Positions 492-28,464 of a stretch of 35,282 nt of DNA are shown in pieces. Where the stretch lies: positions 1 to 35,282 of IMG/VR virus record IMGVR_UViG_3300025879_000005. One strand, written 5' to 3'. The position numbers were made by a program, and so were the translations under genes. Every line of letters begins with the position of its first letter. Position 1 is the first letter of the stretch. The stretch is from a virus. Below the pieces are notes generated by a model. It ran no database searches. It saw only the letters and a program-made list of their open reading frames with translations, and had not been told where the DNA came from.

Positions 492-2738
492 TTATCGTTG
501 AGTTTCTTGCGATGATTGCCGACGCTCTGCTGCTGCACCCCTTGTGACGCCAGTTGTGGCGCCAGAGAACAAAGCACTAGAAATCAATTTTGACAGAGTA
601 TCTGTCTGCGCATCAGTCAATGATTGACCCTTCATTGCTTGGTCAAGAACACGTAACGCAACCATAGCATCTTTGCCACGCTTTTGCGTCAAGGCGCGGG
701 CAATGTCTTCATAAATGCGCTGTCGCTGGGCTGCAGTGTATTCTGCCGTTTGGCCTGTTACAGCCTGAATGAGCGCCTTGGTCGTGTTTACAGCCTCACC
801 CTGCATTGCTTGGCCAACAGCGCCCGGAGCGGTCAACTCATCAACAGTCCCTTGGATGGCTTGCCGACCTGCTGTCTTACTGTTCTGGGCCATTGCCGCG
901 CGAACAGATGCAGACTGGGCGGCTTCATCAATCTGCGCAAGCAGTGCATCTGCCTCTGCGCCCATTAAGTCACGGATTTTCTTGCGGGCGTTGCCGCTGC
1001 TCATATCTGTGACAGCCTTAATGACCTGACGCGCCTCAAGGCTTTCTGCTGTCGGGTCAGAAGCAATGGCACGAACATTCCCTAGGGTTTCTTCAATGTA
1101 TGTGCGAAGGCCCCTTTTAGCCGACTCAATTTGCGCTTGGGACGGGTTTTTGCCCAACTCAAAACCAATGTCTTCTACCCGAGTGCTTGGACGCAGCAGG
1201 CTTTCACCAAAAGAAAACGCTCTTTCTTCGGAAATCTTGTCGCCACCAAGAGCAACCGCTGCACCATAAGGCTCTGCGGCGTCTGCAGTGGCATCACGCA
1301 ACTGCCGTGCCAGATCGTTATACCTGCGCCCTTTGCCTGTCAGCCGGCCAAAGTTGTCTACATTTTCATAGGCGATTGACTGCAAGGCTTTCTTAATTTC
1401 GTCAAGCTGCTGCACGTTTGGCATCTCATCATAGACAACTTTGCCAGCGTCATCGATGCGCGCCATAATCTGCATATTTCTGACGTTACGTGCAGCCATG
1501 TCGGCGTTAGCCTCATCAATGGCGCTTTTCAGTATGCTTGGCTCAATGCGTGAAAGCACATCTTCAATGTTTCGGCCCTGATCTGACGCATAGTTGATTG
1601 GCGTGCGATAAGCCAAGTCATAAGCCCGAGAACGATCGCCAGACGTTTTTGCCGCAATTTCTTCTACTGCGGTGCGCGGGCCAGCGGCGGGGGTGCCGAG
1701 AGCATCGTCAAGTGCGCCCGTAACCGCTTGGTTCGTGCGCGACATACGCTCATCAACAGCGCCGCGCACAATCGTGCCAGCCCGACCACCTGACGCAGCA
1801 GTGGCGTCAAGCAATGCTTGAGCCGCAGGCCCAGCATCAACTAGCATGCCTTCACTTCCAGCGCGGCGCAAATTTACCACTGCAGCGTCAATGTCGCCGC
1901 CTTGGTCAAACGTGTTTTTAATAACCCGAGCTGCGTTTTTAGAGATGTCAAACTCACGGGCAATCTTGTCAATGTCGCTGCGGCGGAAAAGGCCAATGAC
2001 GTTTGAAGAAACCTCAGAAACAATAGATGCTGCGCCGCCAAATACAGCGCCACCAGTGGCGCCAATAGCTGCGCCACGTCCAGCTTCTTGCATGCGCTCC
2101 TCGGCTGTAGTGCCTTCGCCTGCGCCGTAAACCAAGCCCTCAAGCGCACCTGCAGTGGCACCCGCAGTGGCCCCGCGTGCAATTTGCGCAGCTCGGCTAC
2201 CTTGGCCAACTATGTTCGTCAAACCTGCCGCTGCCGCCTGCGGCGCTGCAGCCATCATGCCTGCAGTTCCAGTCAAGCCGCCTGCCAAGTTTAAACCAAG
2301 CGTTTCGCCGGGACGCTGGCGCTGCATCGCGCCTGATAGCGCACGCATGCCTGTAGCCGCTTCTGGCCCTGCAATGGCACCAACCAATTCGTCAGCATAT
2401 GACCCAACAAAAGGTGCGCCTCGCGTGAACTCACCAGCACGCGCAGCAATCGGGTATTGCTCAATCAGGCTTTCATCTATGGACTTGCGGGAAACCTCGC
2501 CACCGGTCATGCCAGACAATGCTTGATTGACCTTTTCTTGGTCGGTCGTGCTGTATCCCGGAGAAACAAGATAACGCTGGCCATTGCTCCGCTCAAAAAT
2601 GCGGGTGTCGCCTTGCTTGGCCACAATGCGTGGCATTGACTGCCAGCTTTCCTTGGCTTTCTGAATGGCCTCGCCTTCGTCCTTTGCAGATACTTCAACC
2701 TCATACCCGCCCGGCGTCATTATCTGATATTTTGCCAT
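492..2738 (-). CDS. Putative internal virion / DNA-ejection protein
   Basis: This is a 748-residue protein whose start overlaps the stop of the upstream transglycosylase gene (TAATG). Residues about 1-60 form a small mixed domain. Residues about 120-250 hold several Gly/Ala-rich hydrophobic stretches with GxxxG spacing, which could insert in a membrane. The rest (about 255-740) is predicted mostly alpha-helical and rich in Ala, Gln and charged residues. Long proteins with such stretches placed between the transglycosylase and the portal in podoviruses are usually ejected with the DNA to build a channel across the envelope (T7 gp14-gp16 or P22 gp7/gp16/gp20 type). No specific family was recognised; the role rests on composition and position. 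Confidence 0.6.
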   Translation of the reverse strand: MAKYQIMTPGGYEVEVSAKDEGEAIQKAKESWQSMPRIVAKQGDTRIFERSNGQRYLVSPGYSTTDQEKVNQALSGMTGGEVSRKSIDESLIEQYPIAARAGEFTRGAPFVGSYADELVGAIAGPEAATGMRALSGAMQRQRPGETLGLNLAGGLTGTAGMMAAAPQAAAAGLTNIVGQGSRAAQIARGATAGATAGALEGLVYGAGEGTTAEERMQEAGRGAAIGATGGAVFGGAASIVSEVSSNVIGLFRRSDIDKIAREFDISKNAARVIKNTFDQGGDIDAAVVNLRRAGSEGMLVDAGPAAQALLDATAASGGRAGTIVRGAVDERMSRTNQAVTGALDDALGTPAAGPRTAVEEIAAKTSGDRSRAYDLAYRTPINYASDQGRNIEDVLSRIEPSILKSAIDEANADMAARNVRNMQIMARIDDAGKVVYDEMPNVQQLDEIKKALQSIAYENVDNFGRLTGKGRRYNDLARQLRDATADAAEPYGAAVALGGDKISEERAFSFGESLLRPSTRVEDIGFELGKNPSQAQIESAKRGLRTYIEETLGNVRAIASDPTAESLEARQVIKAVTDMSSGNARKKIRDLMGAEADALLAQIDEAAQSASVRAAMAQNSKTAGRQAIQGTVDELTAPGAVGQAMQGEAVNTTKALIQAVTGQTAEYTAAQRQRIYEDIARALTQKRGKDAMVALRVLDQAMKGQSLTDAQTDTLSKLISSALFSGATTGVTRGAAAERRQSSQETQR

Positions 2739-4249
2739 TAGTTGCCGACCTTCCCGGTTACGCTAAAGCCACCTTCTTGGGACTGAGATTGACCGCTTTG
2801 AGCGCCTGTGAAGCCGTTATAATAATAATTGCTGGCAACAGGATCATTCTCAATCTTGGTCATAATGCGCTTAATTTCTTCCAAGTTTTCGCGCAGAATT
2901 TTGGGGCTGCTTGATTGCTGCAAGTTGCCATATGCAGAAATCAACAAGTCAAGCTCCCTTTCGCTGACGGCACCAAGAGCGCCGCCAGTTTTGGATGCTT
3001 CGCGCATTTGCTGCAGTCTATCAAAAGCCACATTTGATTGAACTGTCATCAGCTCGTTTCTAAAATCTACAGCTTCTTGGTTGATGCCAAGACCGCCTAA
3101 TGTGCTTCCAACAATGCCCGCCTCTGGCAAGTTAAAGATGCCTTTAGTGTCCAGCATACCAATCAGGCGATCAATGCTCTTAGTGACAATGCTTTCTTTT
3201 TGCGCCTTTGTTTTCTGAGATGTCGCCAATCTCTGAGTTTCTGCCTCTGCTGCGAGGGCTGTCTTGCCACCGGGGATCGGCACAAAACGAACACCTGCTG
3301 GCGAGTTTGGATCAGGAACAACAACTTGGTCGCCAACAACTTTGTAATCTTCACCACCAATGTTAATGACGCTGCCGCCGCCGCCGCCAGATTTGAGGAA
3401 ATCTTGGAAGCTGCCCGGGTATCCTTGCTCTTTGGCAAATTGAAAATTCTTGATAAGCGCAGTGCGATCATCTTTAGCCGTCGCAGTCGCCATCTTCAAA
3501 GCGCCAGCAATGTCGCCAGTGCCTTCAGCGTAACGGATAGCCTGCATAGCCTGCGGCGTCCCAAGACTGCGCAAATAATCTAGTGTGCGGTTTTGCTTCG
3601 CAGTGGCTTTCCGCTCCTCACGACGATCCTTCATCTGCGCGGTCAACACGGCGCCGAGGTTGGGGTCAGGGTTCAGGCGCATGCTGTTGAACGCCAGCGC
3701 GAGGTTGGCCATTGTGTCAGGGTTGCCAAACAAGCCGCCAAGCAAGCCGCGTGGCCGCTGTTCGTCCTGCATTCCGGTGGATTGTGCCTGCGCACCTTGC
3801 GCGATTTGATCGGGCGTCACGGCGCCACCTCCTTTACCTAGTGCGGCCATTGTGTCGGCTGCGACACCCTGCCCGAGCGCACGATTAAATTTCTCAACAT
3901 AACCGCTGCCGGTTGTGCCGAGAATATCCTTGCGGTTGGCCCCGCTGGACCTTGGCTGGCCGGTAAACCATGCAGATGCTGCATCTTGCGGGTTTCCGTA
4001 TTTCTGAACGTAAGAGCCAAACTCACCACGAAACACAGCGTCTTGAGCTTCTGGGCTAGCAAGGAACTCATCAGGCGTCATACGGCGGCCAAGATACTTT
4101 TCAGTCCATGGGCCGATGTTGAAGTCCATGACCTGATACTTGCCGTAGGCACGGTTGCCGCGCTGCGTAATTGGACCAAGCGCGGAATAGCCACCGCTAC
4201 CCGCGCTTTCAATGCTTGCAATAGCGTTGGCCCAATCGTTGATAGCCAT
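2738..4249 (-). CDS. Virion-associated transglycosylase / internal protein
   Basis: This 503-residue protein starts at the ATG overlapping the previous stop (TGATG); an in-frame TTG just upstream is less likely. Residues about 1-125 resemble phage lysozyme/transglycosylase domains: Glu14 in IASIESAGSGG is the candidate catalytic acid, followed by NRAYGKYQVM, MTPDEFLASPEAQD and DAASAWFTG. The remainder is helical and low in recognisable motifs, with a Gly run near residue 290. By family knowledge such enzymes cut peptidoglycan locally while DNA enters. It sits between the S74 protein and the large ejection protein. The catalytic assignment is moderately sure; the C-terminal function is unknown. 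Confidence 0.7.
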   Translation of the reverse strand: MAINDWANAIASIESAGSGGYSALGPITQRGNRAYGKYQVMDFNIGPWTEKYLGRRMTPDEFLASPEAQDAVFRGEFGSYVQKYGNPQDAASAWFTGQPRSSGANRKDILGTTGSGYVEKFNRALGQGVAADTMAALGKGGGAVTPDQIAQGAQAQSTGMQDEQRPRGLLGGLFGNPDTMANLALAFNSMRLNPDPNLGAVLTAQMKDRREERKATAKQNRTLDYLRSLGTPQAMQAIRYAEGTGDIAGALKMATATAKDDRTALIKNFQFAKEQGYPGSFQDFLKSGGGGGSVINIGGEDYKVVGDQVVVPDPNSPAGVRFVPIPGGKTALAAEAETQRLATSQKTKAQKESIVTKSIDRLIGMLDTKGIFNLPEAGIVGSTLGGLGINQEAVDFRNELMTVQSNVAFDRLQQMREASKTGGALGAVSERELDLLISAYGNLQQSSSPKILRENLEEIKRIMTKIENDPVASNYYYNGFTGAQSGQSQSQEGGFSVTGKVGN

Positions 4250-16596: not shown

Positions 16597-16951
16597 CTGG
16601 CTTCACGATGACGCGCTCAATGACTGTTGGCGTCATTGTGCCATCGCTAGACGTGTGGTCGATTTGGTTTGTCTCACGCCAACCAGCTTGGGTTTTTAGG
16701 TAAAACATAGCCGCAGCTTTGTCACCATTTCGCGCCTGCTGCAGCAAGCCTTGGGCCACAACAGCAATAGCTTTAGCCTTACCTCTTTTATAGCGTTCTG
16801 AAATGTCCTCATCTCTTTGCATCATAGCAAACCAAGTTGTCTTACCGATACCAAAGTAATCAGCTATTTGCTCTTGGCTTAGATATGCTGCAAGGGCTTC
16901 AACTTGTGCGCGCTGTTCGTCGTTCAGGGTTTTCGGTGGTCGGCCTGCCAT
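16583..16951 (-). CDS. terS: Terminase small subunit
   Basis: This 122-residue protein begins MAGRPPKTLNDEQRAQVEAL and has a helix-turn-helix SQEQIADYFGIGKTTWFAMM at about residues 25-44, followed by a helical oligomerisation segment (KAIAVVAQGLLQQARNGD, then FYLKTQAGW). This is the standard layout of small terminases, which recognise phage DNA and feed it to the large subunit. The TAATG overlap with the methyltransferase and the overlap with the large subunit support the call. Confidence 0.88.
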   Translation of the reverse strand: MAGRPPKTLNDEQRAQVEALAAYLSQEQIADYFGIGKTTWFAMMQRDEDISERYKRGKAKAIAVVAQGLLQQARNGDKAAAMFYLKTQAGWRETNQIDHTSSDGTMTPTVIERVIVKPDASE

Positions 16952-18141
16952 TACGATGCCTCCCTTTCGGACTGTAGTTTGGCATAAGTTTTTTCCGTGC
17001 CTTCAAGCACAGCCTCTTGACCGGTGAAGTCTTGCCAGCGTTTGATGATTACGTCGCAATATTTGGGGTCGAGTTCCATAACAAAACAGTTTCGACCAGT
17101 TTGCTCTGCTCCAATCAGCGTTGAACCAGAGCCACCAAAAAGGTCAAGAACGTTAAGCAATTTAACATGATTACCAAACGCTCTTACCGATAACTCAACA
17201 GGCTTTTGCGTAGGATGCATATACTTGCTATCTTTTTTAATTGACCAAAGGTCGCTTTCATTTTTTATGACCTCGTCAATCTTGCCATTAAACAGGCAAA
17301 ACTCATGTTGATGTCTATATCCAACACCCATGCCAAAAACGTTTTTGGCCCAAACAATACAAGACCTGTATTCTAGCTTACCTTGCAAAATTCCGTAAAA
17401 ATCCCAGTTGCACCAAATGTAGTAAGCCTTTGGGTCAACAGCTTTTATTGTTGCAATCGTTCCATCAATAAAATCAGCAAAATCTGCATCAGACAAGTTG
17501 TCGTTTTTGATCACATCATGCTTTCCGCTGCGACCATTAAATGCCACGTTATAAGGTGGGTCGGTGAACACCATATCCACTTTGACGTTATTCATCAACT
17601 TGCCCACCGCATCAATGCTAGTGCTATCACCGCACATAAGCCGGTGGCGCCCCAGCACCCAAACATCGCCTTCAACAGTAACCGGCACGGCTGGCGCCTC
17701 TGGCACCGCGTCCTCGTCTGTCAATCCCTCTGTTGGCTCTTGCGCTAAAAATGCATCCAGTTCTTTTGGATCAAAGCCAGTAAGCGAAAGGTCGAAGTCC
17801 AAACCTTCAAGCTCTTGCAGCTCAATTTTCAACATTTCGTTATCCCATCCAGCATCTAATGCCAGACGGTTATCGGCAATAACATAAGCGCGCTTTTGAG
17901 CATCCGTTAGATGTGCAGCCTCAATGCAGGGAACATCTTTCAACCCCAGTTTCTTTGCAGCCATGACGCGGCCATGCCCGGCGATGATGCCGTTGTCACC
18001 GTCAATAATGATGGGGTTTAGAAATCCAAACTCTTTGATGCTGGAGGCGATCTTTGTCACCTGTTCATCTGAGTGTGTGCGGCTGTTGCGCGCGTATGGT
18101 ATCAGACTTTCAACAGATACCGTAATAAACTCTGGTGTCAT
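16951..18141 (-). CDS. ParB-like domain fused to beta-class DNA methyltransferase
   Basis: This is a 396-residue fusion. Residues about 5-100 are a ParB/sulfiredoxin-like nuclease domain with GIIAGHGRVMAAKKLG (51-66). Residues about 155-385 are an S-adenosylmethionine-dependent DNA methyltransferase: TDPPYN at 193-198 is the catalytic motif, HPTQKP at 309-314, and FGGSGST at 335-341 binds the cofactor. DPPY before FGGSGS marks the beta class, as in CcrM and HinfI. It may modify phage DNA against host nucleases or mark DNA for packaging, as it lies directly before the terminase genes. Target sequence is not visible. No matching restriction enzyme is adjacent. Confidence 0.88.
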   Translation of the reverse strand: MTPEFITVSVESLIPYARNSRTHSDEQVTKIASSIKEFGFLNPIIIDGDNGIIAGHGRVMAAKKLGLKDVPCIEAAHLTDAQKRAYVIADNRLALDAGWDNEMLKIELQELEGLDFDLSLTGFDPKELDAFLAQEPTEGLTDEDAVPEAPAVPVTVEGDVWVLGRHRLMCGDSTSIDAVGKLMNNVKVDMVFTDPPYNVAFNGRSGKHDVIKNDNLSDADFADFIDGTIATIKAVDPKAYYIWCNWDFYGILQGKLEYRSCIVWAKNVFGMGVGYRHQHEFCLFNGKIDEVIKNESDLWSIKKDSKYMHPTQKPVELSVRAFGNHVKLLNVLDLFGGSGSTLIGAEQTGRNCFVMELDPKYCDVIIKRWQDFTGQEAVLEGTEKTYAKLQSEREAS

Positions 18142-18506: not shown

Positions 18507-18773
18507 TCAGTCTAACCCCAATTCATGGCCCAGCGCAAGGTATCCTGCACCATCAACGGCACTGTCCCGATGATTTGACAGGCGCAGGCGGGCGATCTTC
18601 AGCAGGGCCATCATGTTAGCTACATCACGCGGCTCGATGTCAGTGCCGAGATATGCCTCCCACATTTCAGCAATAACGCCAAAATTTTCACGCGGCGTCC
18701 CGTAGTCTTCCTGCCGCTGGCCGTTGATAAGTTCGTTGGCCTCTTCAAGCACCCGTGTGCGTTCTGTGGTCAT
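18507..18773 (-). CDS. DUF6378-like small phage protein
   Basis: This 88-residue protein has the pattern LEEANELINGQRQEDYGTP, ENFGVIAEMWEAYLG, DVANMMALLKIARL and HRDSAVDGAGYLALG, the hallmark of a widespread phage family (DUF6378). The arrangement of acidic residues in helices recalls MazG-type nucleotide pyrophosphohydrolases, but this is only a resemblance. It is the last gene of the replication operon before a strong terminator and overlaps the HNH gene (ATGA). Confidence 0.75.
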   Translation of the reverse strand: MTTERTRVLEEANELINGQRQEDYGTPRENFGVIAEMWEAYLGTDIEPRDVANMMALLKIARLRLSNHRDSAVDGAGYLALGHELGLD

Positions 18774-19333
18774 GTCTGCCTTCCGTGGTTTGCATGAAAT
18801 CCATATTTATCCTCAGCCTCCTTGCGGGCGGCTATAGCGTCGGATTTTTCAATAAAGAACCCGAGGTGCTTCCTCACATTATTGATATTAATCTGAGCAT
18901 GCCATTTATGCGACCTCTTATTCCAATAGACGCCGCAAGCACCACTACTGCTGTCTACTCGAAGTTTTTGGTTTCTACCATTTTCAGCGTGCGAAACTGA
19001 TCTTAGGTTTTCTATTCTATTATCGCAACGATCACCGTTGATGTGATCTAATTGCTCACTTGGCCAGTCTCCACTCCAAATTGCCCAAATCACGCGGTGC
19101 GCAAGATAAGGTTTCCCAAATACAGGACCGCATTGATACCCTTGAACCAGTGAAGTAAGAGCCTCTTTTCCGGCATGCTTGCCGTTCCACGCTTTGCACG
19201 ACCATTCAGAACTGCGCTTCCCACCAACAAACATATCAGGCGTTCTTTCACGCCAATACAGCTTGCCAGTGTTTGGCTCGTAACGAAGCAACTTGCGCAG
19301 CAGTTCCGGTGAAGGTAGATTTTTGGCAGTCAT
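18770..19333 (-). CDS. HNH homing-type endonuclease with AP2-like DNA-binding domain
   Basis: This 187-residue protein has an HNH nuclease core: LAHRVIWAIWSGDWPSEQLDH, with the metal-binding DHINGDRCDNRIENLR segment at about residues 95-110. It then has a C-terminal AP2-like DNA-binding domain, GVYWNKRSHKWHAQI then HLGFFIEKSDAIAARKEAE. This two-domain layout is typical of free-standing mobile endonucleases. No interrupted gene or intron is seen around it, so it sits as a plain operon member. A long hairpin (19361-19395) lies in its leader. The end overlaps the next start (ATGA). Confidence 0.85.
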   Translation of the reverse strand: MTAKNLPSPELLRKLLRYEPNTGKLYWRERTPDMFVGGKRSSEWSCKAWNGKHAGKEALTSLVQGYQCGPVFGKPYLAHRVIWAIWSGDWPSEQLDHINGDRCDNRIENLRSVSHAENGRNQKLRVDSSSGACGVYWNKRSHKWHAQININNVRKHLGFFIEKSDAIAARKEAEDKYGFHANHGRQT

Positions 19334-25547: not shown

Positions 25548-25742
25548 ATGACAATCGAAGAAGAGATTAACCTATATCGCAGCATGATACAGTTTCACGA
25601 GAAAAGCTGCAGCGACCTTCTGCAGCGATACGGAACCGGAGTAAGGCCGAGCTGGGTCTCAGAGGACTTGGCATTGGCAGGTCACCAAATTCGCCTATAC
25701 AAGCAGAGGTTGTCAGAGCTAGAGGGCCAGAACGATGCGTGA
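25548..25742 (+). CDS. Small helical early protein
   Basis: This 64-residue protein (MTIEEEINLYRSMIQFHEKS onward) looks wholly helical, with a C-terminal amphipathic segment IRLYKQRLSELEGQ. A strong AGGAGAGAG precedes its ATG. Its end overlaps the 29-residue membrane peptide gene by 8 bases. I do not recognise a family. Confidence 0.65.
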   Translation: MTIEEEINLYRSMIQFHEKSCSDLLQRYGTGVRPSWVSEDLALAGHQIRLYKQRLSELEGQNDA

Positions 25743-25824
25743 CTTTATCTGCGATCTGATCGGCGTAATCTGCCTGTTCGCCACCATGTATATCCTGCTG
25801 TTCATACCGGTGGTCGTCCAATGA
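25735..25824 (+). CDS. 29-residue single-span membrane peptide
   Basis: This tiny gene encodes MRDFICDLIGVICLFATMYI followed by LLFIPVVVQ. About 20 hydrophobic residues in a row make one membrane helix, with a short charged N-terminus. Its start lies inside the end of the previous gene and its TGA overlaps the next ATG (ATGA), so it is probably translated by coupling. It may alter the host inner membrane early in infection; its function is unknown. Confidence 0.6.
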   Translation: MRDFICDLIGVICLFATMYILLFIPVVVQ

Positions 25825-26045
25825 ATTACCTCACCATGCTGGTATTCATCGCCAATATAAACGGTGAAGACATGCCATTCCCGATACCGTTCACCAGTGA
25901 GCAGGTATGCGAACAAGCGCTGCGCACAAATGAAATATACGAAATCTTCGACGCCGACTGGAAAGACACGATGGTCGGCTGCGTTAAGACCGAAGTAGTC
26001 ACAGGCTACACAATCAGACCGAAAGCACGTCCATGGAGCAAGTAA
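25821..26045 (+). CDS. Small early protein, unknown
   Basis: This 74-residue protein starts MNYLTMLVFIANINGEDMPF with a hydrophobic N-terminus, then PFTSEQVCEQALRTNEIYEIF, and two Cys residues (about 30 and 54) that could form a disulfide. The end is basic (IRPKARPWSK). It could be exported, but no clear cleavage site is seen. Its start and end overlap neighbours, supporting translation. Confidence 0.6.
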   Translation: MNYLTMLVFIANINGEDMPFPIPFTSEQVCEQALRTNEIYEIFDADWKDTMVGCVKTEVVTGYTIRPKARPWSK

Positions 26046-26509
26046 TGCAATCGCAAATGCAGACAGAGAAACTAACAATCGTAAACATCATCGTATCAGG
26101 CAGCGGCTTCGGCGTGACGGCTGACGGCACCAGCGTTTTTGTGCCGCCGCGTGTTGTCTCCGCAGCCAACGCGGAGATTGGCGACGTATTCACCGCAAGC
26201 CTGATCCAGAACGACCTTAACCCGTCAGGTCGCACCCCGTTTCTGGCTGTGCGCTTGGAGCGCGAAGAACAGCAGCAAGCAGAGGCCGATACTGGCCACC
26301 GTTCTCACATTCTTGAGATGCTGAAAGACGGCTACATGACCAGCGCAGAGGTTGGCAAAGAAATCGGCATGGATGCCATCGGCGCCAAAGGAATTTTGAA
26401 AGGCATGTGGGAGAAGGGCGATATTGCGAAAGCGCTGATTTACTCTCGTGCCGACCAAAAGCGCGCTACGCATGTGCTGTGGGCGCTGAATGCTGACGAT
26501 TTTCTGTGA
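26045..26509 (+). CDS. OB-fold (cold-shock-like) plus winged-helix protein
   Basis: The ATG at 26045 has GGAG six bases upstream and overlaps the previous stop, giving 154 residues; an ATG at 26033 is an alternative. The N-terminal half (KLTIVNIIVSGSGFGVTADG, SVFVPPRVV, GDVFTASLI) resembles a cold-shock/OB fold that binds single-stranded nucleic acid. After a Gln-rich linker, residues about 85-150 look like a winged helix (HILEMLKDGYMTSAEVGKEI, AKGILKGMWEKGDI). The pairing suggests a regulator binding DNA or RNA. Exact role unknown. Confidence 0.65.
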   Translation: MQSQMQTEKLTIVNIIVSGSGFGVTADGTSVFVPPRVVSAANAEIGDVFTASLIQNDLNPSGRTPFLAVRLEREEQQQAEADTGHRSHILEMLKDGYMTSAEVGKEIGMDAIGAKGILKGMWEKGDIAKALIYSRADQKRATHVLWALNADDFL

Positions 26510-26517
26510 GGTGTGAT

Positions 26518-27069
26518 ATGGGTGAGCGTTGGACTGAGCGTGAGGAAAAAATCCTCATGCAGATGGTAGAAGACAAAACAGATTACGAAGACATTGCTGT
26601 CAGGCTAGGGCGCAGCAAAGGTAGCGTCGTCTCGAAGGCGAAGGATATGCGCCGCCGCGCGAACATGCCGCCAAAGGAGCCGAAGCAGCGTTCGGATGCG
26701 TGGAAGGCTCACGAGATTGAAACGCTTATCAACATGTTTGGCGATGGCTTCAAGACGTCAGAGATTGCCGAGCATCTTGGTCGCGGTCTGGCGGGGACAC
26801 GGTTCAAGCTGGTGAAGCTGCGCCAAGAAGGCCATCGGATCGACCGCCGCCGCACTATTCGTGAGAACGCCGAGGTGATGCGCAAGGCAAAAGGCATCAA
26901 GCTGGGCCGCATATCAACCTCGCTATTCAGCGATCAGGACACTAACGTGTCTCGTGAGGCGGTGGACTGGATTGTGAATTACGCGGTCAGCAACGGCTAT
27001 CCCACGCTGGCTGAGTGCTTGGTTGATATAGCTTTGGAGCAATATTTTCAGGAGATGGCTGATGGCTAA
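26518..27069 (+). CDS. Two-domain Myb/GcrA-like DNA-binding protein
   Basis: The ATG at 26518 follows GAGG, giving 183 residues. Residues 4-47 (RWTEREEKILMQMVEDKTDY, EDIAVRLGRSKGSVVSKAKD) and about 62-103 (DAWKAHEIETLINMFGDGFK, TSEIAEHLGRGLAGTRFKLV) are two helix-turn-helix units like Myb/SANT or GcrA. GcrA is a cell-cycle regulator of alphaproteobacteria. The C-terminal 70 residues look helical (VSREAVDWIVNYAVSNGYPT, then ECLVDIALEQYF). It may control phage or host promoters. The GcrA link is a resemblance only. Confidence 0.65.
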   Translation: MGERWTEREEKILMQMVEDKTDYEDIAVRLGRSKGSVVSKAKDMRRRANMPPKEPKQRSDAWKAHEIETLINMFGDGFKTSEIAEHLGRGLAGTRFKLVKLRQEGHRIDRRRTIRENAEVMRKAKGIKLGRISTSLFSDQDTNVSREAVDWIVNYAVSNGYPTLAECLVDIALEQYFQEMADG

Positions 27070-27256
27070 CGAGGGGCGTGGACTGGGTGAATACCAGAAG
27101 CGGCAGCGCAAGCCAGTGATAATTCGTGGCGTGCGCTATGAGAGCCACGTTGCTGCAGCCAAGGCGCTGGGTGTTAGCGACCGGACGATCAGCATGGCGG
27201 TAAAGCGCGGGACACTGGACAGGGTGGCGATGAGCAAGGAGAAAGCCGATGACTGA
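27062..27256 (+). CDS. Stand-alone NUMOD1-like protein, copy 1
   Basis: This 64-residue protein has GEYQKRQRKPVIIRGVRY, then ESHVAAAKALGVSDRTISMA and VKRG. The pattern K-P-V-x-I-x-G-x-x-Y-x-S then an AAxxLGVSxxTI helix-turn-helix resembles NUMOD1, a small DNA-binding module usually attached to homing nucleases. Here no nuclease is joined to it. Two related genes follow at 27593 and 27783. Starts and ends overlap neighbours by 8 bases each. Confidence 0.65.
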   Translation: MANEGRGLGEYQKRQRKPVIIRGVRYESHVAAAKALGVSDRTISMAVKRGTLDRVAMSKEKADD

Positions 27257-27449
27257 CGACCTACGCAGCACCCTACTGGCGTATTTCGCCATAGTGCCAT
27301 CGGCCTGCGCCGACATGGTGGCAAGCGATCTCGGGCTAGGCCAGCGTGAGGTGCAAGAGGCGCTGATCCAGATGGATGATGACGGCGATCTGCTGATGAA
27401 AAACGGCTGGTATCGCCTTAGCGAGAGGGCGAAGAAAAATGCCAAATGA
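27249..27449 (+). CDS. Small winged-helix-like protein
   Basis: This 66-residue protein (MTDDLRSTLLAYFAIVPSAC onward) has the layout of a winged helix: a first helix, ADMVASDLGLGQREVQEALI as the helix-turn-helix, and GDLLMKNGWYRLSE as the wing. It may bind DNA. It lies among other DNA-binding genes of the operon with 8-base and 11-base overlaps with neighbours. Confidence 0.6.
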   Translation: MTDDLRSTLLAYFAIVPSACADMVASDLGLGQREVQEALIQMDDDGDLLMKNGWYRLSERAKKNAK

Positions 27450-27615
27450 GGAAGGCTTTTTTAAACTTGACCCGTGGCCAGACAACAAAGGCCGCAAACC
27501 GAAGCCAAGCGATCTGCAGAATTTCAGCCTGCATTACCGGAAAGACATTCCGGTGACGCTGGCAAAGTCTCCACCATGGGAGAAAGAGAGCGATGAAACG
27601 CAAAACGATGGGTGA
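27439..27615 (+). CDS. 58-residue early protein, unknown
   Basis: This gene (MPNEEGFFKLDPWPDNKGRK onward, then PSDLQNFSLHYRKDIPVTLA) starts inside the end of the winged-helix gene and ends inside the start of the next, which is strong context for translation. The product is polar, rich in Pro and Lys, with no recognisable domain. Confidence 0.55.
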   Translation: MPNEEGFFKLDPWPDNKGRKPKPSDLQNFSLHYRKDIPVTLAKSPPWEKESDETQNDG

Positions 27616-27883
27616 TTTTCAACGCGCACAGCGCAAGCCGGTGACGATACGTGGCATCACGTTTCTGAGCCAAGCAGATGCCGCACGGCACTTTGGCCTG
27701 AAAAAGCACACCGTATGCGCCGCCATTGCGCGGGGAAAACAAAACAACATTGGGCTTGGAACTGGATATAAGGAGAAACGAGATGCCACAAGGGCGGGGC
27801 GAGTATCATCGCAAGGTCAGCAAGCCGGTGACAATCCGCGGCATCACATACGCCAGCAGGGGCGAGGCGTCACGGGCGCTTGA
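27593..27883 (+). CDS. Stand-alone NUMOD1-like protein, copy 2, with out-of-frame tail
   Basis: The ATG at 27593 follows GAGAAAGAG. Residues 1-56 carry the module: FQRAQRKPVTIRGITFLSQA, then DAARHFGLKKHTVCAAIARG. The last 34 residues run in another frame through the start of the next paralogue (101-base overlap), so this tail is probably a by-product of a lost stop codon or a duplication joint. Function as for copy 1: probably DNA-binding; target unknown. Confidence 0.6.
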   Translation: MKRKTMGDFQRAQRKPVTIRGITFLSQADAARHFGLKKHTVCAAIARGKQNNIGLGTGYKEKRDATRAGRVSSQGQQAGDNPRHHIRQQGRGVTGA

Positions 27884-28076
27884 CGTGTCGCACACATGCA
27901 TCTCAAGCGCGGTCAAACGCGGCATGCTGGATTTTGTCGGCCTGCGCAAGGCGAACAACAACCGCAAGCCAGTTATCGTAAACGGCGTCTGGTATCCTAG
28001 CGTTTTGCGGGCGTCAGTGGAGACAGGCATCGGCATAAAGAAAATCAGAAAGATTGCGGTGCCTGCTAGTAAGTAA
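27783..28076 (+). CDS. NUMOD1-like protein, copy 3, with a second degenerate module
   Basis: The ATG at 27783 follows AAGGAG and gives 97 residues. The first module is GEYHRKVSKPVTIRGITYAS, then GEASRALDVSHTCISSAVKR. A second, more divergent copy follows: RKPVIVNGVWYPSVLRASVE, then TGIGIKKIRKI. It is the last gene of the rightward operon and its stop overlaps the end of the oppositely directed nuclease gene by 11 bases. Confidence 0.65.
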   Translation: MPQGRGEYHRKVSKPVTIRGITYASRGEASRALDVSHTCISSAVKRGMLDFVGLRKANNNRKPVIVNGVWYPSVLRASVETGIGIKKIRKIAVPASK

Positions 28077-28464
28077 CGTCACCGCCAAGCTCACGTTTCA
28101 GCCAGCGGAGATCGTTTATCATCGCTGGCTGTGTAAACTCGCGGTCAGGCAGAAACAACTCTTTTCTGTCTCGCCAGATGTCGCCAGCAAATATTCGCAT
28201 CATGCCAATATCAATCGCAACACAGCAGTAATAATCAGCCAGCACTGTCATACGGGGCCGCTGGAACTTGTAGCCACCGCTTGCCCGATTTCGCCTGCTG
28301 CTTGTCTTTACCTCAACACGGGCCAATGTGCCGTCGCCTGCATGCACAACCAAATCAAACGCCCCGTCAATTCTTGATGCCTCTAAGCCAGCGTAGGCTT
28401 CCAGCAGGTAGCAGGCGAGGTATTCACCAGCCCGCCCGTGGCGTATATTGATCGTGCGGGCCAT
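28066..28464 (-). CDS. PD-(D/E)XK nuclease-like protein
   Basis: This 132-residue protein has the nuclease pattern: GRAGEYLACYLLEAYAGL with Glu14, then GAFDLVVHAG with Asp37, then RVEVKTSSRR with Glu51-Val-Lys53, followed by a mainly strand and helix part (YKFQRPRMTVLADYYCCVA). This is the usual layout of small group I intron-type or Hjc-like endonucleases. It is the last gene of the leftward transcript. Possible roles are resolution of branched DNA or attack on host DNA. Its start overlaps the previous stop (TAATG). Confidence 0.7.
   Translation of the reverse strand: MARTINIRHGRAGEYLACYLLEAYAGLEASRIDGAFDLVVHAGDGTLARVEVKTSSRRNRASGGYKFQRPRMTVLADYYCCVAIDIGMMRIFAGDIWRDRKELFLPDREFTQPAMINDLRWLKRELGGDVTY

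Follow-up and report, generated by a model that had tools for sequence, protein, structure and literature searches.

Homing-endonuclease-type modules encoded without a nuclease in a phage operon and a wider family of small, predicted DNA-binding phage proteins

What do modules that normally guide homing endonucleases to DNA do when a phage encodes them as small, separate genes with no nuclease attached? The question is raised by a 35 kb viral record of a marine phage, analysed over its whole length of 35,282 nucleotides (the window), with a podovirus-like gene set: portal, major head protein, terminase, DNA ejection protein, primase/polymerase, exonuclease and endolysin. Its portal, head, terminase, ejection, replication and endolysin genes all lie on the minus strand; the three genes considered here, A, B and C, belong to a short plus-strand operon that runs from about 25548 to 28076 and whose 3' end abuts a convergent gene (28066-28464). 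A preliminary description had presented them as a tandem array of NUMOD1-type genes with a winged-helix gene among them. Three module genes do share one operon, but two unrelated genes separate A from B and C, so that the array is not strictly tandem; the supposed winged-helix gene is indeed one of the two, but its label depends on weak matches (E 0.06-0.11). GGAG-type ribosome-binding sites stand at the starts of A, B, C and this gene, and the last codons of A (KEKAD) double as the GGAG-GATG start signal for it (Table 1). Elsewhere in the window, on the minus strand, are a ParB-like domain in apparent fusion to a DNA methyltransferase (16951-18141; phrog_498 E 1.7e-139) and a free-standing HNH endonuclease with an AP2-like region (18770-19333; HNH_3 E 1.5e-16; AP2 E 1.2e-4, under its cut-off), which is likely to be a homing nuclease of the same phage.

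Table 1. Features of the plus-strand operon, in window coordinates
Feature	Position	Strand	Evidence or remark
D5-like transcriptional regulator, upstream operon gene, 187 aa	26506..27069	+	two HTH/Myb-like regions; phrog_323 E 1.7e-17; homologues in relatives
Left copy of 16-nt imperfect direct repeat flanking A (ribosome-binding site and start codon)	27051..27066	+	12/16 identical to right copy
Gene A, 64 aa: leader GRGLGEYQKRQRKPV and one beta-hairpin/HTH module	27062..27256	+	profile E 1.8e-16
Right copy of 16-nt imperfect direct repeat flanking A	27238..27253	+	12/16 identical to left copy
Operon partner between A and B, 66 aa, weakly winged-helix/MarR-like	27249..27449	+	77-82% identity in L158, L159, L161, L162, L164
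Operon partner between A and B, 58 aa, no function assigned	27439..27615	+	67-75% identity in L158, L159, L161, L162, L164
Gene B, one module at about residues 14-60	27593..27772, frame open to 27883 (96 aa)	+	profile E 2.6e-13
Gene C, 97 aa: leader and two modules, C1 at about residues 14-54 and C2 at about 62-93 (degenerate)	27783..28076	+	profile E 5.5e-19, 2 domains

That the three genes carry one and the same module was established with a profile built from annotated-phage modules only, the window sequences being left out so as to avoid circularity. Among the 834 open reading frames of the window it recovered exactly A, B and C, the only ones with E below 1, and the best value among 33,360 shuffled control frames was 0.026. 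The motif reads KPVIIRGVRYES...VKRG in A, KPVTIRGITFLS...IARG in B and KPVTIRGITYAS...VKRG in C1; the additional degenerate module that had been proposed for the last gene is present as C2 (KPVIVNGVWYPS; profile E 1.9e-4 for C2 alone). A leader of the form GE[YF]QxxxRKPV, or close to it, precedes the module in A, B and C1, and a motif search of the collected proteins found it elsewhere only in their orthologues, which suggests local duplication. The B frame overlaps C out of frame by about 100 bases because the window lacks the stop codon of its relatives; the six B orthologues (L158, L159 and L161 to L164) end at ...ATRAG or similar, and in the window its loss lengthens B by about 28 residues, translated from gene C sequence in another frame (27773-27883, plus strand). 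At the other end, the C-terminus of gene C (28040-28080) is unlike that of all relatives, which have several hundred or more additional bases between C and the convergent gene at 28066; it looks as though a deletion clipped the end of gene C in the window.

As to what the module is, the sequence matches of the window proteins to I-TevI_DNA-bd and NUMOD1 are weak but consistent. Against NUMOD1 (PF07453, cut-off 22.8 bits) A scores 16.2 and C 16.3, with no match for B; against the I-TevI DNA-binding domain (PF20987, cut-off 27 bits) C scores 21.1, B 19.8 and A 15.4, so that all three lie below both thresholds. Relatives with the same module do exceed the NUMOD1 cut-off, namely R4C gp045 (33.0), Tedan gp47 (32.4), L042 (52.8), L022 (89) and the L056 protein, and GIY-YIG nucleases of the Burkholderia phages BcepSaruman and FLC6 carry the module at their C-termini. 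A Pfam search found no GIY-YIG or HNH catalytic domain in A, B or C.

Structure prediction agrees with the sequence matches. AlphaFold2, run on gene C with 25 sequences, yields the hairpin-HTH unit twice (E16-18 E21-23 H26-33 H37-46; E64-66 E69-71 H74-81 H85-91), with a mean pLDDT of 78 and values mostly of 77-87 inside the modules; on the four-module relative of L056 it yields four such units at a spacing of 44-45 residues. The predicted fold of the module is thus a beta-hairpin followed by a helix-turn-helix, a DNA-binding fold of the HTH type. Its best matches in the PDB are I-HmuI (C-terminal module, PF22083, 1u3e; Z 5.3), the I-TevI DNA-binding domain (1i3j; Z 5.3, 43 residues, rmsd 2.6 A) and sCTP-23166 of Paulinella (8b6e; Z 5.2, rmsd 1.6 A over 42 residues, 29% identity), the next lying at 2.2, where a Z of about 5 may reflect a common arrangement only. 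Foldseek against the PDB gave E-values of 1.2 and 1.4 (the latter for I-TevI), neither significant, so the case for the fold rests on the agreement of sequence and structure. Among predicted viral structures the closest are stand-alone proteins, one of them named 'Nuclease-associated modular DNA-binding 1', followed by homing endonucleases; matches to the AbiEi antitoxin and to excisionase were set aside as generic HTH similarity. Taken as a claim about kind, the earlier assignment to multiplied, nuclease-free modules of the NUMOD1 type therefore holds by weak matches, predicted fold and relatives above the cut-off, with A, B and C themselves remaining below it.

Comparison with related contigs separates a stable pair from a variable neighbour. 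A leader-specific scan found the B-C pair in the same six contigs as above, all viral, with gene neighbours and their order preserved. Five of them cover the junction, and in these gene A is absent between the homologues of the 26506 and 27249 genes; all six records were searched (L158 spans 39.5 kb and L161 37.8 kb) and contain B and C modules only. L040 resembles the window in having gene A after the homologue of the 26506 gene; in L017, L050 and L067 gene A stands in other operon contexts. Gene A thus behaves, as far as such comparisons of sequence indicate, as a movable cassette. Its borders carry the repeat copies GGAGATGGCTGATGGC and GGAGAAAGCCGATGAC, of which relatives devoid of A have a single one at the junction. 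This fits gain or loss of the cassette through recombination at start junctions, a mechanism that we can only infer, since the repeat is also what translation requires.

The genes are real proteins under purifying selection. For A, dN/dS between the window and its orthologues in L067, L006, L017, L050 and L040 is 0.07-0.26; for B it is 0.02-0.39 overall and 0.09-0.23 between the window and five orthologues; for C it is 0-0.45 overall and 0.35-0.45 between the window and its relatives. Most pairs lie well below 0.3, and although single values are rough because synonymous distances are large in many pairs, the direction is uniform. This bears on whether A, B and C might be remnants of homing endonucleases after loss of the nuclease, either functionless or persisting as passive decoys, as one might suppose from a module shared with GIY-YIG nucleases and from a gene A that resembles an accessory cassette. 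Ratios well below 1 in all three genes, good ribosome-binding sites, the retention of B-C in six contigs with operon order intact and the regular 44-45-residue spacing in multi-module relatives all argue against such decay, which we consider highly improbable; nothing was found in favour of the decoys that the preliminary description had also entertained.

Over 108 distinct modules the hairpin/helix scaffold is conserved, and the presumed recognition-helix positions rank with the most variable. A, B and C1 share 23% identity in this region and 61% elsewhere in the module; within orthologues the figures are 64% and 84%, a comparison that is descriptive because the positions were picked after the entropy profile had been seen. 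A recognition helix that differs so much among paralogues but stays largely the same among orthologues suggests specific targets, and it is plausible, as had been surmised, that A, B and C have different, individually maintained DNA targets.

From these observations we think it probable that all three genes encode small regulators that bind DNA sequence-specifically and are related to the tails of homing endonucleases, with binding, targets and regulation inferred. Each protein has a basic N-terminal arm and carries one or two predicted beta-hairpin/helix-turn-helix modules, the same type that GIY-YIG and HNH homing endonucleases use as DNA-binding tails. Encoded in one operon with a D5-like regulator, they may serve as repressors or activators at phage or host promoters. 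The I-TevI DNA-binding domain, which alone is a transcriptional repressor (PMC2988022) and acts without cleavage, offers an analogy: the phage proteins might work as that domain does when it represses its own promoter, for which the nuclease is not needed. Evolution of the set would involve duplication, recognition helices that drift apart, and whole-gene cassettes acquired or lost at junctions of ribosome-binding site and start codon. A comparison of the DNA upstream of the operon revealed no convincing promoter or conserved operator.

Against regulation it must be said that a small DNA-binding protein can have other uses, and the main rival reading gives A, B and C an accessory part in replication or in coating the genome, for which modest specificity would be enough. 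Psul1_p21, a NUMOD1 protein, has been proposed to help replication (PMC6536676), Pyei1_p22 and R4C gp045 adjoin replication genes, and the relatives in Paulinella form an expanded family reported to bind double-stranded DNA (PMC12176269). The recognition helices, divergent between paralogues and largely kept in orthologues, speak for dedicated targets instead, and the window genes are grouped with a regulator and not with the replication genes of the minus strand; we therefore regard a replication or coating role as rather unlikely. Another conceivable role is that of shields, the free modules occupying homing-type sites in phage DNA and so blocking cleavage by rival mobile nucleases. The module is the same as that by which homing endonucleases find their targets, both its copy number and its recognition helices vary, and the window does encode the HNH-AP2 nuclease mentioned above; that nuclease, however, bears AP2 and not the module of A, B and C, and such a shielding function seems to us very improbable. 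Regulation remains the reading we prefer.

Free modules of this kind are found well beyond the window, in many other phages, where they too are probably small regulators of genes. A survey of viral contigs and annotated phage records, using a degenerate DNA pattern followed by the profile, gave 57 distinct module proteins (two Burkholderia phage nucleases and the annotated-phage proteins included) with one module in 18, two in 28, three in seven, four in two and five in two; these counts are not frequencies, since proteins with the motif are favoured by the pattern and the contigs form a convenience sample. The variation in copy number that one would look for in related phages is therefore there, at one to five modules per protein. 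No nuclease domain occurs among the 25 commonest Pfam families of the 59 module frames from the window and the viral contigs, and nine rarer families outside these leave room for a single nuclease-bearing exception. Named phages of Dinoroseobacter (R4C gp045, with three modules), Ruegeria (Tedan gp14 and gp47), Paracoccus (Pyei1_p22) and Rhodobacter (RcTiptonus gp12) encode stand-alone members with the same PV-x-I-x-G-x-x-Y-x-S/HTH module. Strict peptide patterns taken from C and from the 26506 gene had retrieved no relatives from the viral contigs, and looser searches later did; plasmids gave no match to the four-module relative. Among 50 records with the same major capsid protein (about 80% identity), two had marginal matches at best, so that the modules look rare in this group, many of whose records are fragments.

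Some members of the survey are unusual in their architecture. The largest neighbouring set of free modules found is in L056, where two four-module genes adjoin (2189-3342, minus strand). In one 47,370-base contig five modules exit at one end (L031, 7207-8073) and three enter at the other (L028, 2-385); were the contig circular, the two stretches could join into a single gene of eight modules. Pyei1_p22 (L011, 2776-3354) has two modules behind an N-terminal HGTIRGYVTHGCRCDVC segment that looks like a small metal-binding domain, and its gene is placed between a CI-like repressor and a replication initiator.

How much of this was known before? Stand-alone NUMOD1 proteins of phages (Psul1_p21, PMC6536676; UniProt A0A6J5KGX7, 'Nuclease-associated modular DNA-binding 1') have the same beta-strand and HTH motif without a nuclease, and R4C gp045, Tedan gp47, L022 and L056 pass the PF07453 threshold that the window proteins do not; the window differs further in that a common leader marks three separate genes of a single operon, B-C forms a conserved pair and A is apparently movable. 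The multi-module proteins of the roseophage type carry two or three copies on one nuclease-free protein, lack the leader and are annotated only as hypothetical or HTH proteins, whereas the window spreads its modules over three genes. I-TevI and I-HmuI may resemble A, B and C in predicted fold, with a weak sequence match, and differ in that the window proteins have no catalytic domain and show no association with an intron. At least as annotation, then, the module was known already, both free-standing and in multi-module proteins, which qualifies the earlier statement that such an array had not been described. In the open-access papers searched we found no description of stand-alone multi-gene NUMOD1 arrays, of an operon in which a conserved B-C pair is accompanied by a movable A, or of the breadth of the family.

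The link to Paulinella chromatophora reaches outside phages. Its DNA-binding sCTPs, reported to bind double-stranded DNA, consist of a single stand-alone module, which in sCTP-23166 the phage-module profile matches at E 3.3e-4; unlike the phage proteins they are eukaryotic, imported into an organelle and limited to one module. The match to sCTP-23166 may possibly be a viral link for that expanded family. One might go further and speculate that phages keep evolving nuclease-free NUMOD1 sets, as separate genes or as one to five modules per protein, with cassettes exchanged at start junctions and diversifying helices, and so rewire transcription or cover rival homing sites, the Paulinella family possibly being descended from them; taken as a whole, we hold this to be unlikely.

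What emerges is a widespread, mostly unannotated family of small phage proteins, predicted to bind DNA and built from the targeting modules of homing endonucleases. Since a protein may hold one to five modules, and a fixed scaffold bears varying recognition helices, the family is well suited to tests of how specificity builds up module by module. It would equally allow one to ask how the targeting domains of selfish nucleases come to serve as regulators, and the match to Paulinella gives a lead on the origin of an organelle-targeted family of DNA-binding proteins.
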